From Tractidigestivibacter scatoligenes (lineage in GTDB: Bacteria > Actinomycetota > Coriobacteriia > Coriobacteriales > Atopobiaceae), in contig NZ_LOJF01000012.1 in the NCBI RefSeq assembly GCF_001494635.1, positions 1 through 64,000 on the forward strand: a stretch of DNA of 64,000 nucleotides. The letters run 5' to 3'. Below are positions 5,699 to 10,098 of this stretch, piece after piece; within the stretch, counting starts at the first letter, position 1; each line of letters begins with the position of its first letter. The position numbers were made by a program, and so were the translations under genes. The notes beneath the pieces were generated by a model, which ran no database searches, was not told where the DNA came from, and saw only the letters and a program-made list of their open reading frames with translations.

Positions 5699-5738
5699 GG
5701 TTGCGACCTTCCAGACGAGACGGGCGGCACGCCGCCCA

Positions 5739-5806
5739 ACGCAGAAGCCATCAGCGCCATGCGGTTCGGCGAGCGCGCCCGCCGGGGAGGCCTCATTCCC
5801 CAGCGG
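5739..5806 (-). promoter_or_regulatory. fluoride riboswitch (crcB RNA motif)
   Basis: On the minus strand the leader of crcB reads GGGGAATGAGGCCTCCCC, then a GC hairpin with GAACCGC, then GCTGATGGCTTCTGC. This order matches the crcB motif (RF01734-type) consensus. The loop GAGGCC can pair with GGCTTC to make the expected pseudoknot. A 7-bp hairpin GGGCGGC-GT-GCCGCCC at 5725-5740 follows and ends about 12 bases before the ribosome site GGAAGG. It could mediate termination or translational control. Confidence 0.85.
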
Positions 5807-5915
5807 GCAGCGTAGCACAGCCGGCGCCAGCCTACCCGCGCGGTCGCTCGTTCGCACGGCTTTCGCACCCCAAGCAACCCAGGCCCCGCGTTACCAAGCG
5901 TTTACACAACGACTC

Positions 5916-5945
5916 TTGCGACACGCGGGCCATCGGGCGTATAGT
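5916..5945 (+). promoter_or_regulatory. promoter of the Trp leader / ECF operon
   Basis: TTGCGA at 5916-5921 and TATAGT at 5940-5945 are separated by 18 bp and lie 59 bp before the leader peptide start. Transcription would begin near 5952, so the leader peptide and terminator would be in the 5' untranslated part of the operon mRNA. Confidence 0.5.
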
Positions 5946-6003
5946 TCCCGACAACAAGCACAGGCCGCCCACGCGGCCGGAACTCACGAGAGGAGCGCCA
6001 GAG

Positions 6004-6084
6004 ATGAACCGCATCGCCACTAACATCGCACGTACGTCCATGAACTGGTGGTGGCGCGATTCGCAAGCGGTCGGTCGATCGTGA
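6004..6084 (+). CDS. tryptophan-rich leader peptide (attenuator)
   Basis: A 26-codon ORF whose predicted peptide contains MNWWWRD at residues 13-19, with three consecutive TGG codons at 6046-6054. GAGAGGAG precedes its ATG by about nine bases. Four Trp-neutral codons later come RNA segments able to form alternative hairpins, then an intrinsic terminator at 6112-6147. This is the classical layout of ribosome-mediated attenuation: stalling at Trp codons when charged tRNA-Trp is scarce would favour an antiterminator. The first gene it would control is an ECF S component starting 130 bp further on. The peptide itself probably has no other function. Confidence 0.8.
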   Translation: MNRIATNIARTSMNWWWRDSQAVGRS

Positions 6085-6111
6085 GTCTCTCGCGCCATAA
6101 TTTCGCGAATT

Positions 6112-6147
6112 AAGAGGGCTCCCGGTTTGACCGGGGCCCTCTTTCTT
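6112..6147 (+). terminator. intrinsic terminator (Trp attenuator) before the ECF operon
   Basis: AAGAGGGC, a bulged T and CCCGG pair with CCGGGGCCCTCTT around a TTTGA loop, a 13-bp stem followed by TTTCTT. It lies between the Trp leader peptide and the first S-component gene. GAGTCTCT at 6083-6090, overlapping the leader stop codon, can pair with AGAGGGCTC at 6113-6121 and would then break this stem, so it is a plausible antiterminator. Confidence 0.8.
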
Positions 6148-6214
6148 GTGCAAGCACACCCTCTAAGCGATCTCAAACCACACACAGCGTCACCCAATCA
6201 GAAAGGAACCAACC

Positions 6215-6787
6215 ATGTCCGAGAACACCAACACCCAGCAGGCCCGCACCGTCACCTCCGAGGATCACGGAAAGCTCGACGTCCGCGCGCTGGTACTTCT
6301 CGCCGTGCTTCTCGCGGCAGGCTTCATCCTCAACTTCACCGTGGGCAAGGCCATCTCCAGCATCTCCGGCGGCATGATCAGCCCCGAGTTCATCATCTCG
6401 GCCTTCTGCCTCACCATCCTGGTCGTTCGTCCCAACGTCCCGCAGGCCCTGGTTATTGGCCTCATCTCTGCGGCCGTGATCCAGATCACCACGACCTCGC
6501 CCTTTGTTGACTTCGCCGCCGAGGGCGTGGCCGCCATGCTCATGGCCGTCATCGTGAGCGCCGGCATGCGCGGCAGCGCCAAGAAGATCGTCCCCGCCAT
6601 TGGCACCTTTGTCACCACCGTAGTCTCCGGCGTCATCTTCATGATCATCCGCATCGCCATGGTTGGCGCCGCTCAGCAGCTTGCCGCCGCCATGCTCCCC
6701 GTTGTCTTTGCGACCGCCGTCTTCAACGCCATTCTCGTCCAGGCGCTCTATATCCCCGTGTGCAAGGCCCTTAAGGTCAACGACTAA
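6215..6787 (+). CDS. ECF transporter S component, TrpP-like (tryptophan)
   Basis: A 190-residue membrane protein with about six helices after a 20-residue polar N-terminus. The first helix (LAVLLAAGFILNFTVG) and the segment PEFIISAFCLTILVVRPNVP followed by VIGLISAAVIQ resemble the tryptophan transporter TrpP/YhaG group of ECF substrate-binding subunits. It is the first gene after the Trp-codon attenuator, is followed 54 bp later by a paralogue, and then by the ECF ATPase and EcfT genes. Tryptophan as substrate is inferred from the family resemblance plus the leader. GAAAGGA precedes the ATG. Confidence 0.75.
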   Translation: MSENTNTQQARTVTSEDHGKLDVRALVLLAVLLAAGFILNFTVGKAISSISGGMISPEFIISAFCLTILVVRPNVPQALVIGLISAAVIQITTTSPFVDFAAEGVAAMLMAVIVSAGMRGSAKKIVPAIGTFVTTVVSGVIFMIIRIAMVGAAQQLAAAMLPVVFATAVFNAILVQALYIPVCKALKVND

Positions 6788-6841
6788 CCGCCCGTCCTCA
6801 ACCGTAGACCTCACCAGCAGCACAACCGAAAGGAGCCCACC

Positions 6842-7399
6842 ATGTCCGAGCAGAACGCAACCCAGGCACGCACCGTCAACACCACCGAGCACTCCGGCAA
6901 GGCCGACGTCTCCTCCCTCGTCCTTCTCGCCGTCCTTCTCGCCGCAGGCTTCATCCTCAACATGACCGTGGGCAACGCCCTTGCCATCGTAGGCATCAAG
7001 CCGCAGTTCATCATTGCCTCCTACGCGCTGGCAATCCTGCTCTCCAACGCCGGCTTTGGCCAGGCGGCCATCTTTGGCCTGGTCTCCGCCGCCGTCATCC
7101 AGCTCACCACCTCCATCCCCGGCCTCAACTTTGTGACCGAGCTCGTCGCCGCGCTGGTGATGTCCGCCCTCATCCGCCGCACCATCAAGATTGGCGGTCG
7201 TGACGTCACCCCGCTTGTCGCCGCCTTCGTGACCACGCTCGTCTCCGGCGCACTCTTCGCCGTGGCTGGCAACCTCATCATGGGCGCCGCACTGGCCACC
7301 GTGGTCGTGAAAATCCCTATCGTCCTGGGCACCGCAATCTTCAACGCCGTCGTAGTCCAGGCCCTCTACTTCCCCCTCAAGAAGGTCCTCAAGAAGTAG
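6842..7399 (+). CDS. ECF transporter S component, paralogue of the preceding gene
   Basis: A 185-residue protein clearly paralogous to the gene at 6215-6787: both begin MSE.N..QARTV, share LLAVLLAAGFILN, and have the same PQFIIASYALAIL and GLVSAAVIQLTTSIPG blocks. Two S components adjacent to one energising module may have the same ligand with different affinity, or related ligands (tryptophan and an indole or aromatic compound). GAAAGGAG stands before the ATG. Two R1 palindromes lie in the 139 bp between this gene and the ATPase gene. Confidence 0.75.
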   Translation: MSEQNATQARTVNTTEHSGKADVSSLVLLAVLLAAGFILNMTVGNALAIVGIKPQFIIASYALAILLSNAGFGQAAIFGLVSAAVIQLTTSIPGLNFVTELVAALVMSALIRRTIKIGGRDVTPLVAAFVTTLVSGALFAVAGNLIMGAALATVVVKIPIVLGTAIFNAVVVQALYFPLKKVLKK

Positions 7400-7421
7400 T
7401 TCGTCTACGATAGTGAACCGC

Positions 7422-7456
7422 ACGTGAGACAAAGGGACAGTCCCTTTGTCTCACGT
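7422..7456. repeat. R1 palindrome, copy 1
   Basis: A 16-bp perfect inverted repeat with a CAG loop; each arm holds GTGAGACAAAGGGA or its complement. It lies 22 bp after the second S-component stop. It can form the same hairpin on either strand but has no T tract. Confidence 0.9.
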
Positions 7457-7497
7457 ATGTGGCAGGGACGCTCCTTGCCTTCACCCCAGCATTGGTA

Positions 7498-7526
7498 TGA
7501 GACAAAGGGACTGTCCCTTTGTCTCA
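7498..7526. repeat. R1 palindrome, copy 2
   Basis: A 13-bp inverted repeat (TGAGACAAAGGGA arms, CTG loop) directly repeated 42 bp after copy 1. It ends one base before the CGAAAGG ribosome site of the ECF ATPase gene, so hairpin formation could limit translation or trim the transcript between S-component and ATPase cistrons. Confidence 0.9.
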
Positions 7527-7538
7527 CGAAAGGCTCTT

Positions 7539-9359
7539 ATGACCGCACGGGAAGAAAAGCCCATCATCGAGATGAGCCACGTCACGTTCTCCTACGACGC
7601 ACCAGCCGAGGGGGGCGCCGAGAACAGCGAGGACGCCGCGCTGCGCGACGTGTCGCTGAGCATTGGCGCGGGCGAGTTCGTAGGCGTGATTGGACCCTCG
7701 GGCGCCGGCAAGTCCACGCTCGCGTCCGTGATGTCGGGTGCCATCCCTCACCACTACCACGGCGCACTCTACGGCGCCACACTGGTCGACGGGCACGACA
7801 CCTGCGACGTGACGCTCACCGACATCTCGCAGGTAGTGGGCAGCGTCCTGCAGGACATCGACACCCAGATGGTGGCCTCGGTGGTCGAGGACGAGATGCT
7901 CTTTGGCCTGGAGAACTTTGGCGTCCCTCACGACCAGATCGAGGGGCGCATTGCCCAGACGCTTGAGACTGTGGGCATCTCCAACCTGCACGAACGCGAG
8001 ATAGCCACGCTCTCGGGCGGTCAGAAGCAGAAGGTGGCCATTGCCGCCATTCTCGCCATGCGCCCGCGCGTCCTGGTGCTCGACGAGCCCACGGCCGCGC
8101 TTGACCCCGCGTCGTCGACCCTTGTGTTTGACACACTGCGCAAGGTGCGCGAGGAGGGCGTCACCGTGGTGGTCATCGAGCAGAAGGTGGCGCTGCTCTC
8201 GGAGTACTGCGACCGCATCCTGGTGATGAGCAAGGGGTCGCTGGTGCTGGACGGCACGCCGCGCGAGGTCTTCTCGCACGGCGATGAGCTGCGGCGCATT
8301 GGCGTCGACAGCCCGCGCGTGGCACGCGTGTACAACTCGCTTGCAAAGGACGGCCTGGTTTCCGGCGCACCGTGCCTCACCGTGTCCGAGGCGGCGGAGG
8401 TCATATCTGGCCTGGTGCAGCCCGCGTCAAAGACGAGCTGCCACGTGGCAAGCGCCGAGGAGGGAGCACGCGAGGCGGGCTTCCGCGCGGGCTCCAAGCA
8501 CGTAGCAACGCCGCGCCCGCACGCCGAGGGCGCTCAGCCAGTGGTGAGCCTTGAGGACGTGAGCTTTGCGTACCCGGGCAGAACGGCATCCGTGGACCAC
8601 CTGGACATGCGGGTGTATCCCGGCGAGGTCGTGGGCATTGTGGGCCAGAACGGCGCCGGCAAGACCACGCTCACCAAGCTACTCAATGGCTTGCTGCGTC
8701 CCGCGTCGGGCACCGTGCGGATGGCTGGCCTCGACACGCACGAGGTTCCCACCAGCGCGATTGCCGCGCACTGCGCGACCCTTTTCCAGAACCCGGACTA
8801 CCAGCTGTGCAAGGACACCGTGCTCGAGGAGGTCGCGTTTGGCCTCACGCTCCAGGGCGTGGACGAGAGGGACGCGCGCGAGCGTGCCAGCGCGGTGATC
8901 GAGCACTTTGGGCTGCCCGCAGACGAGGCGCCCTTCTCGCTCTCGCGCGGCCAGCGGCAAATGGTGGCACTGGCATCCGTGGTGGTGATGGAGCCGGAGG
9001 TGGTGCTTCTCGACGAGCCTACGAGCGGCCTTGACTACCGCGAGTGCATGACCGTAATGGACACGGTAAGCAAGATGGCCGAGCGCGGCTGTGCAGTAAT
9101 CATGGTCTGCCACGACATGGAGGTCGTCTCGGACTTTGCCGAAAGGATCGTGGTCATGGCAAACGGGCGCATCCTCGACCGCGGCGGCACACTCGAGATG
9201 TTCTCCAACGCCAAGCTCATGCAGGAGGCAAGCGTGAGGGCGCCGCAGGTCATCGAGCTGTCCGAGGTTCTCGCACGCGATCTTTCGCCCGAGTTTGCCG
9301 GAATCAGCCAGGTCTCTGGCATAGTCGACCTCACCGAGGAGATGGTTCGCCGTGGTTAA
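7539..9359 (+). CDS. ECF transporter ATPase, fused EcfA-EcfA' (two NBDs)
   Basis: A 606-residue protein with two ABC ATPase domains, energising the ECF transporter with EcfT. NBD1 has Walker A GPSGAGKST at residues 52-60, signature LSGGQKQ and Walker B VLVLDEPTAALD. NBD2 has Walker A GQNGAGKTT, signature LSRGQRQ and Walker B VVLLDEPTSGLD. The H-loop His is present in NBD2 (VCHDMEV) but replaced in NBD1 (VIEQKVA), so the two sites are unequal. A 75-residue variable linker joins the domains. The ATG at 7539 is chosen over an in-frame extension lying inside the R1 palindromes because GAAAGG precedes it. It overlaps ecfT by eight bases. Confidence 0.9.
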   Translation: MTAREEKPIIEMSHVTFSYDAPAEGGAENSEDAALRDVSLSIGAGEFVGVIGPSGAGKSTLASVMSGAIPHHYHGALYGATLVDGHDTCDVTLTDISQVVGSVLQDIDTQMVASVVEDEMLFGLENFGVPHDQIEGRIAQTLETVGISNLHEREIATLSGGQKQKVAIAAILAMRPRVLVLDEPTAALDPASSTLVFDTLRKVREEGVTVVVIEQKVALLSEYCDRILVMSKGSLVLDGTPREVFSHGDELRRIGVDSPRVARVYNSLAKDGLVSGAPCLTVSEAAEVISGLVQPASKTSCHVASAEEGAREAGFRAGSKHVATPRPHAEGAQPVVSLEDVSFAYPGRTASVDHLDMRVYPGEVVGIVGQNGAGKTTLTKLLNGLLRPASGTVRMAGLDTHEVPTSAIAAHCATLFQNPDYQLCKDTVLEEVAFGLTLQGVDERDARERASAVIEHFGLPADEAPFSLSRGQRQMVALASVVVMEPEVVLLDEPTSGLDYRECMTVMDTVSKMAERGCAVIMVCHDMEVVSDFAERIVVMANGRILDRGGTLEMFSNAKLMQEASVRAPQVIELSEVLARDLSPEFAGISQVSGIVDLTEEMVRRG

Positions 9360-10098
9360 CGTGATCGACTACGTGCCGGGAGACACCCTGCTGCATCGGC
9401 TGAACCCCGTGACCAAGCTAGGCATTGCCGCGGCAATCATCATTGCGATTTTCCTGGCCGACACCTACCCCATGCTGCTAGGGCTTCTCGTCCTCACCTT
9501 TGCGCTGGGCGCCTACGCGCATGCCACGTCCAAGCTGGTCTCGCTGCTCAAGCTGCTTGTGCCGCTGGCGGTGGTGATGCTTCTGCTGCAGACGGCGTTT
9601 GTGCGCGGCGGCGCGCCCGTGTTTGCGTGGATGACCACGGAGGGCCTGGTCACGGGCAGCAAGGCATGCCTGCGCCTGATGGGCGTGGCGCTGCCGCTCA
9701 TCCTCATGCTGAGCGTGACCAAGCTCAACGACCTGGCAAACGCCTGCGTCGAGGTGCTGCACATTCCGTATCGCTACGCGTTCACGTTCACCACGGCGCT
9801 GCGCTTTGTGCCCGTGTTCAGCCAGGAGATGAACGCGATCATGGAGGCGCAGACCGCGCGTGGCGTTGAGTACGACACCAAGAACCCCATCCGCAAGCTG
9901 CAGCTCATGCTGCCGCTGTGCGTGCCGCTGCTGGTGAGCTCGGTGGGAAAGACCGACGCGACGGCGCTTGCCGCCGAGCAACGCGGCTTCTACCTGCGCA
10001 CGCGCGAGAGCAGCTACAAGCGCTACCCGATGGTGGGACGCGATGTGGTGGTGCTGGTTGCGTGCGCTGCGCTGGTGGTTGCCGGCGCGCTGCTGTAG
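9352..10098 (+). CDS. ecfT: ECF transporter transmembrane component EcfT
   Basis: A 248-residue membrane scaffold subunit of the CbiQ/EcfT family. The N-terminal DYVPGDTLLHRLNPVTKL segment is family-typical, and the two coupling-helix Arg motifs that contact the ATPases are visible as QTARGVEYD near residue 167 and AEQRGFYLR near residue 205. The GTG start overlaps the end of the ATPase gene and has GAGGAG upstream. It completes a full S-S-A/A'-T operon. The cluster of R6 hairpins begins about 70 bp downstream. Confidence 0.9.
   Translation: MVNVIDYVPGDTLLHRLNPVTKLGIAAAIIIAIFLADTYPMLLGLLVLTFALGAYAHATSKLVSLLKLLVPLAVVMLLLQTAFVRGGAPVFAWMTTEGLVTGSKACLRLMGVALPLILMLSVTKLNDLANACVEVLHIPYRYAFTFTTALRFVPVFSQEMNAIMEAQTARGVEYDTKNPIRKLQLMLPLCVPLLVSSVGKTDATALAAEQRGFYLRTRESSYKRYPMVGRDVVVLVACAALVVAGALL

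Follow-up and report, generated by a model that had tools for sequence, protein, structure and literature searches.

In the trpL leader of Escherichia coli, tandem Trp codons are combined with a 1:2, 2:3 and 3:4 pairing logic and a default terminator, and the leader described here shares all of these features, but it has three Trp codons, an antiterminator predicted to take in the terminator loop together with the foot of strand 4, and targets in uptake and salvage. The E. coli tnaCAB operon, which includes a Trp permease gene, is also preceded by a Trp-containing leader peptide; however, it is induced by high free tryptophan in a Rho-dependent manner, that is, with the opposite sign. Within the Actinobacteria, trp attenuators are known on the trp operons and trpS of Corynebacterium and Streptomyces, where the leader peptide likewise has two or three UGG codons and is accompanied by a GC-rich terminator and an antiterminator (Seliverstov et al., 2005, PMC1262725). 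Those attenuators precede biosynthesis or tRNA synthetase genes, whereas here an ECF importer, an NSS transporter and TrpB2 are the targets, and the sequence motifs differ.

Trp T-boxes, which act by antitermination in response to tRNA-Trp charging, occur in other phyla on genes for NSS transporters and trpB-like proteins (PMC2494555) and on trpX of Streptococcus suis, where they control a Trp uptake system (PMC9382623). The gene types are thus the same or comparable, but T-boxes bind the tRNA directly without a leader peptide, which takes their place here. In Firmicutes, His leader-peptide attenuators lie on the his operon and/or the hisZYX transporter (PMC9413887), and leader-peptide attenuation may therefore include an amino-acid transporter, although in that case the amino acid is histidine, the phylum is another one and the transporter is a classical ABC system. 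The open-licence literature searched yielded no description of leader-peptide attenuation acting on an ECF importer or occurring in Coriobacteriia, in agreement with the first-pass annotation, which had called a Trp attenuator on an ECF uptake operon apparently undescribed; the mechanism is classical, and the targets and the lineage appear undescribed.

The leader occupies 300 nt in Tractidigestivibacter scatoligenes (family Atopobiaceae; genome 2.47 Mb, 99.9% complete), with a divergent crcB gene on one side and an ECF operon on the other. Tractidigestivibacter montrealensis and Olsenella sp. kh2p3 are among the near relatives of this species in its genus. The window, that is, the whole stretch of DNA analysed, is 64,000 nt long, and the parts of the leader and operon given below lie on its forward strand. 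Each of the elements that the first-pass annotation had claimed here was found again. The promoter, TTGCGA-18-TATAGT at 5916-5945, is kept across the genus and is the sole promoter-like place in 5700-7600 by consensus scan (two overlapping readings, with 0.3 expected by chance). A conserved Shine-Dalgarno sequence, GAGAGGAG at 5988-5995, is followed after 8 nt by the ATG at 6004 of a 26-codon leader ORF (6004-6084, stop at 6082-6084), conserved in orthologues, which encodes MNRIATNIARTSMNWWWRDSQAVGRS* and contains NWWW; the three tandem Trp codons (TGGTGGTGG, 6046-6054) are the predicted stall site. Only the length of the intrinsic terminator had to be corrected, from 13 to 14 bp: in the fold, 6112-6119 and 6121-6126 pair with 6130-6143 ahead of TTTCTTG, and this conserved hairpin with its T tract (6112-6148) stands before the first gene. 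Taken together with a co-varying antiterminator that excludes the terminator and a 1:2 helix that overlaps the Trp codons, this arrangement is best explained by a ribosome-mediated transcription attenuator that would sense charged tRNA-Trp and control a dedicated tryptophan ECF importer, a reading to which we give a probability of about 0.9.

Downstream lie two TrpP-like S components, as had been claimed, each with a PF17099 match that spans nearly the whole profile: S1 (6215-6787) scores 25.5 bits, just below the cut-off of 27.2, and S2 (6842-7399) scores 33.5 bits, above it. They are followed by EcfA and EcfA', which form one fused protein of 606 aa (EcfA-A', 7539-9359; TIGR04520 and TIGR04521 above cut-off), and by EcfT, the transmembrane coupling component (9352-10098; CbiQ, PF02361). 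The genes for S, A, A' and T are thus all in one operon, as in dedicated (group I) ECF systems, and in a separate collection EcfA and EcfT adjoin S1 at 42 of 45 named loci. We infer that S1, S2, EcfAA' and EcfT make up a dedicated ECF importer with tryptophan as its substrate. The gap between S2 and EcfA also holds two copies (7426-7452 and 7499-7525) of a 27-nt palindrome, GAGACAAAGGGAC[A/T]GTCCCTTTGTCTC, which occurs at 51 genomic places, with none for the reversed control, and is a REP-like dispersed hairpin.

From this arrangement we infer leader translation, stalling, the termination outcome, the tryptophan response and read-through. With ample tryptophan, the ribosome would pass the three Trp codons and reach the stop at 6082, where, given the general size of a ribosome, it would cover roughly 6065-6095 and leave GGTCGA and TCGCGCC unable to pair; with the 5' strand of the antiterminator covered, the 6112-6143 hairpin would form and transcription would stop short of S1. 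If charged tRNA-Trp runs low, the ribosome would stall on 6046-6054 and mask segment 1 (6051-6059), freeing segment 2 and GGTCGATCG to form one long hairpin of 6072-6094 with 6104-6133, which would take up the terminator 5' arm, the loop and the first bases of the 3' arm, so that the operon would be read. Without translation, the 1:2 helix would form and the terminator would be the default.

Conservation was followed by seeking the S1 gene and reading the upstream DNA, in 60 relatives and then in 397 Coriobacteriales genomes. Ninety-seven leaders could be extracted before S1 orthologues, with NWWW or a close form (WW(W)) almost always nine codons from the stop; they also carry a terminator, whose loop and 3' arm hold GACCGG. 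An alignment across Coriobacteriia, proposed by the first-pass annotation as a check, accordingly came out in its favour, as nearly all of the 97 leaders carry WWW with a terminator and the helices co-vary. In the separate collection, TGGTGGTGG lies within 500 nt upstream at 43 of the 45 named loci. A covariance model, R1, found matches in 162 of the 397 genomes at E<=0.01 and in 137 at E<=1e-8, and it matched 127 of the 133 S1-bearing genomes of two families: strong matches were obtained for all 64 in the Collinsella family, one of them at E 1.3e-8, and for 63 of the 69 in the window's family. The weak tail of R1 is a mix of real TrpB2-type leaders and some chance matches; three weak matches (L194, L202, L205) were rejected as leaders. 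No convincing match was found outside Coriobacteriales, and those at E about 0.002 among 316 genomes searched elsewhere in the phylum were treated as chance. Because the same leader precedes orthologues in well over 100 genomes, a chance origin of the putative attenuator is excluded.

A few S-bearing genomes (G025, G102, G108) gave no R1 match. One of them, G025, has a WWW leader with a terminator but of wholly different sequence (L027). In this leader ACTCTGA, located past the stop, is able to pair with TCAGAGT in the terminator 5' arm and loop, judged by eye to be the same design.

The R1 matches that do not precede S1 fell into two more leader classes. In the genus of Slackia isoflavoniconvertens, the leaders precede an NSS-family transporter (PF00209), whose best PDB sequence match (for L117) is 4us3, which we take to be the Trp-binding transporter MhsT; this target is MhsT/TnaT-like. 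In several families, AWWW-type leaders stand before the gene for a TrpB-like enzyme that belongs to the TrpB2 group, with TIGR01415 and NF009057 above cut-off and with tryptophan synthase beta chains as best PDB matches. The first-pass view of an attenuator on a Trp ECF operon is therefore supported as to that operon but too narrow, as the device also stands before NSS and TrpB2 genes, and it is best read as a putative regulon in which Trp attenuation governs uptake and salvage.

The 1:2 helix joins segment 1 (6051-6059), which overlaps the third Trp codon, to segment 2 (6090-6098), which pairs either with segment 1 or within the antiterminator; both segments are defined by folding and by compensatory changes. 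Five of its seven pairs change on both sides, with 25 such cells against 9.8 in shuffles, and its own-versus-swapped pairing energy gives z -6.5, statistics that ignore phylogeny; it is 81.7% paired, compared with at most 52.2% when slid. In Collinsella relatives, for example, TGGCGCGA:TCGCGCC becomes TGGCGTGA:TCACGCC, and similar exchanges are seen elsewhere.

To find the antiterminator, the RNA beyond a ribosome stalled at the Trp codons was folded with the 3' arm of the terminator still incomplete. The antiterminator is a single hairpin of -24.8 kcal/mol in which the 5' strand, CGGTCGATCG.GAGTCTC.TCGCG (6072-6094; fold and own-versus-swapped test), pairs through CGGTCGATCG, GAGTC, TC and TCGCG with CGCGA, GA, GGCTC, CGG and TTGACCG of the 3' strand (6104-6133; fold and pairing tests), which comprises CGCGA, the terminator 5' arm, the loop and the first 3'-arm bases. 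The invariant GGTCRA of the 5' strand, near the leader stop, thereby finds its pairing partner in the loop of the terminator and at the foot of the 3' arm. It had been suggested that a stretch at the leader stop, GAGTCTCT, can pair with the 5' arm of the terminator; GAGTCTC does so, but it forms just the central part of a longer helix that extends beyond GAGTCTCT to the terminator loop and 3' arm.

The core of this helix is 91.2% paired, compared with at most 45.4% when slid, and GGT pairs with the terminal ACC in the minimum-energy fold of 76 of 79 distinct sequences. Own-versus-swapped energies give z -4.3 in trpP, -3.4 in trpB2 and -9.1 pooled, with phylogeny ignored, and in the pooled set the own pairs beat all 5000 permutations. 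The mean energy is -9.7 kcal/mol for own pairs, -5.3 for trpP leaders with trpB2 terminators and -6.3 for the reverse. TrpB2 leaders achieve the same pairing with other sequences, namely CGGGTTATCG:CGGTAATCCG, CGGATTA:TAATCCG, CGGGTCTC:GAGATCCG and CGGACTGA:TCAGTTCCG. Own-versus-swapped pairing that includes these leaders is the strongest evidence that the predicted loop-capturing antiterminator is real. GGTC:GACC itself is nearly invariant, and the core helix is supported mainly by the flanking positions and the divergent TrpB2 leaders. Swapping longer strands of 18 nt by 26 nt gave no signal (z -0.5), because shared sequence dominates and bulges shift between clades, and the antiterminator claim is therefore based on the upper portion of the helix.

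A short, Trp-rich leader might also suggest arrest as in TnaC, in which the nascent peptide would bind free tryptophan, the ribosome would stall at the stop and the downstream RNA would be altered, and tnaCAB with its permease gene offers a precedent. The leader peptides here do end in G-R/Q-x. However, of the 97 leaders, 95 use GGT for the Gly, compared with 4 of 92 Gly codons of the operon, and 74 continue with CGA, compared with 0 of 56 operon Arg codons, so that what is conserved at the C-terminus is just an RNA motif written in rare codons. In L023 and L104 this motif reads GGT TGA, which cuts the ORF short, with the RNA motif running on; in Slackia relatives, most NSS leaders have their stop three codons past WWW, leaving CGGTCGATCG outside the ORF; and the residues between WWW and the stop vary freely. 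The conserved C-terminal peptide and stop position of a TnaC-type leader are thus absent. Because of this codon usage and of the relatives whose stop precedes the motif, the constraint on the leader end is on RNA and not on peptide, as an antiterminator would demand, and a TnaC-like arrest peptide was rejected as very unlikely.

It is very unlikely that the terminator is a constitutive early one, with the Trp-rich ORF setting a basal level or reporting general translation without tryptophan-specific control, given that mutually exclusive, co-varying helices are placed exactly for gating by a ribosome at the Trp codons and that TrpB2 and NSS genes are preceded by the same design, again with three Trp codons in every case. 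Control of the T-box or TRAP type in place of ribosome-mediated attenuation has precedents in the Trp T-boxes of other phyla and in TRAP, which controls trpP in Bacillus. However, the Rfam matches listed for 5880-6260 up to E<=10 include no T-box and are weak and irrelevant, and no Rfam family, T-box and Trp leader included, reaches gathering score in the window. With the comparison covering the Rfam models, control of the T-box or TRAP type is rated extremely improbable. Ribosome-mediated attenuation thus remains the preferred reading.

The physiology of these bacteria is consistent with a role in acquisition. No IGPS/TrpC gene was found in the window genome, and just 1 of the 64 S1-bearing Collinsella-family genomes has one; TrpC absence was used in place of TrpA. 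TrpA matches in the window genome (L109, L110; G000:C9:582494-584703) were taken as paralogues, as this TrpA-like TIM-barrel gene lies not in a trp operon but in a nucleoside-uptake-like, BtpA-like cluster with no other trp genes. Most Coriobacteriia gut bacteria seem to be without tryptophan synthesis, and one genome survey places Collinsella and Olsenella among the chief tryptophan auxotrophs of Actinobacteria, predicting that they make up 41.6% of these (PMC10665431). In eight relatives with a trp operon (among L213-L221), no Trp-rich leader of the same kind was found before trpE; one ORF there (L220) has two separate W codons and is unremarkable. Because TrpC is missing and the biosynthetic trp operons examined have no such leader, the switch seems to serve acquisition and not synthesis.

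Overall, we consider it probable that this is an order-wide regulon for acquisition only (ECF, NSS and TrpB2 indole salvage), not biosynthesis, in mostly Trp-auxotrophic gut bacteria, with the first ECF importer under leader-peptide attenuation and an antiterminator that takes up not only the terminator 5' arm but also the loop and the 3' foot. Such a regulon would provide codon-level evidence that TrpP-like ECF importers, the NSS transporter and TrpB2 enzymes serve tryptophan, the first-pass annotation having drawn on the same codons for the importer, and a prediction of how Collinsella, Olsenella and their relatives respond to gut tryptophan supply. It would also mean that in Coriobacteriia leader-peptide attenuation does the job that T-boxes do elsewhere, and with R1 there is now a covariance model for a family that Rfam does not contain. 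Finally, in two genomes (L124, L126) trpB2, an S component and an ECF ATPase lie in one run, where the S component and the ATPase form one ORF of 505 aa downstream of trpB2 (1915-3429 in L126, and likewise in L124), an apparent S-A fusion.
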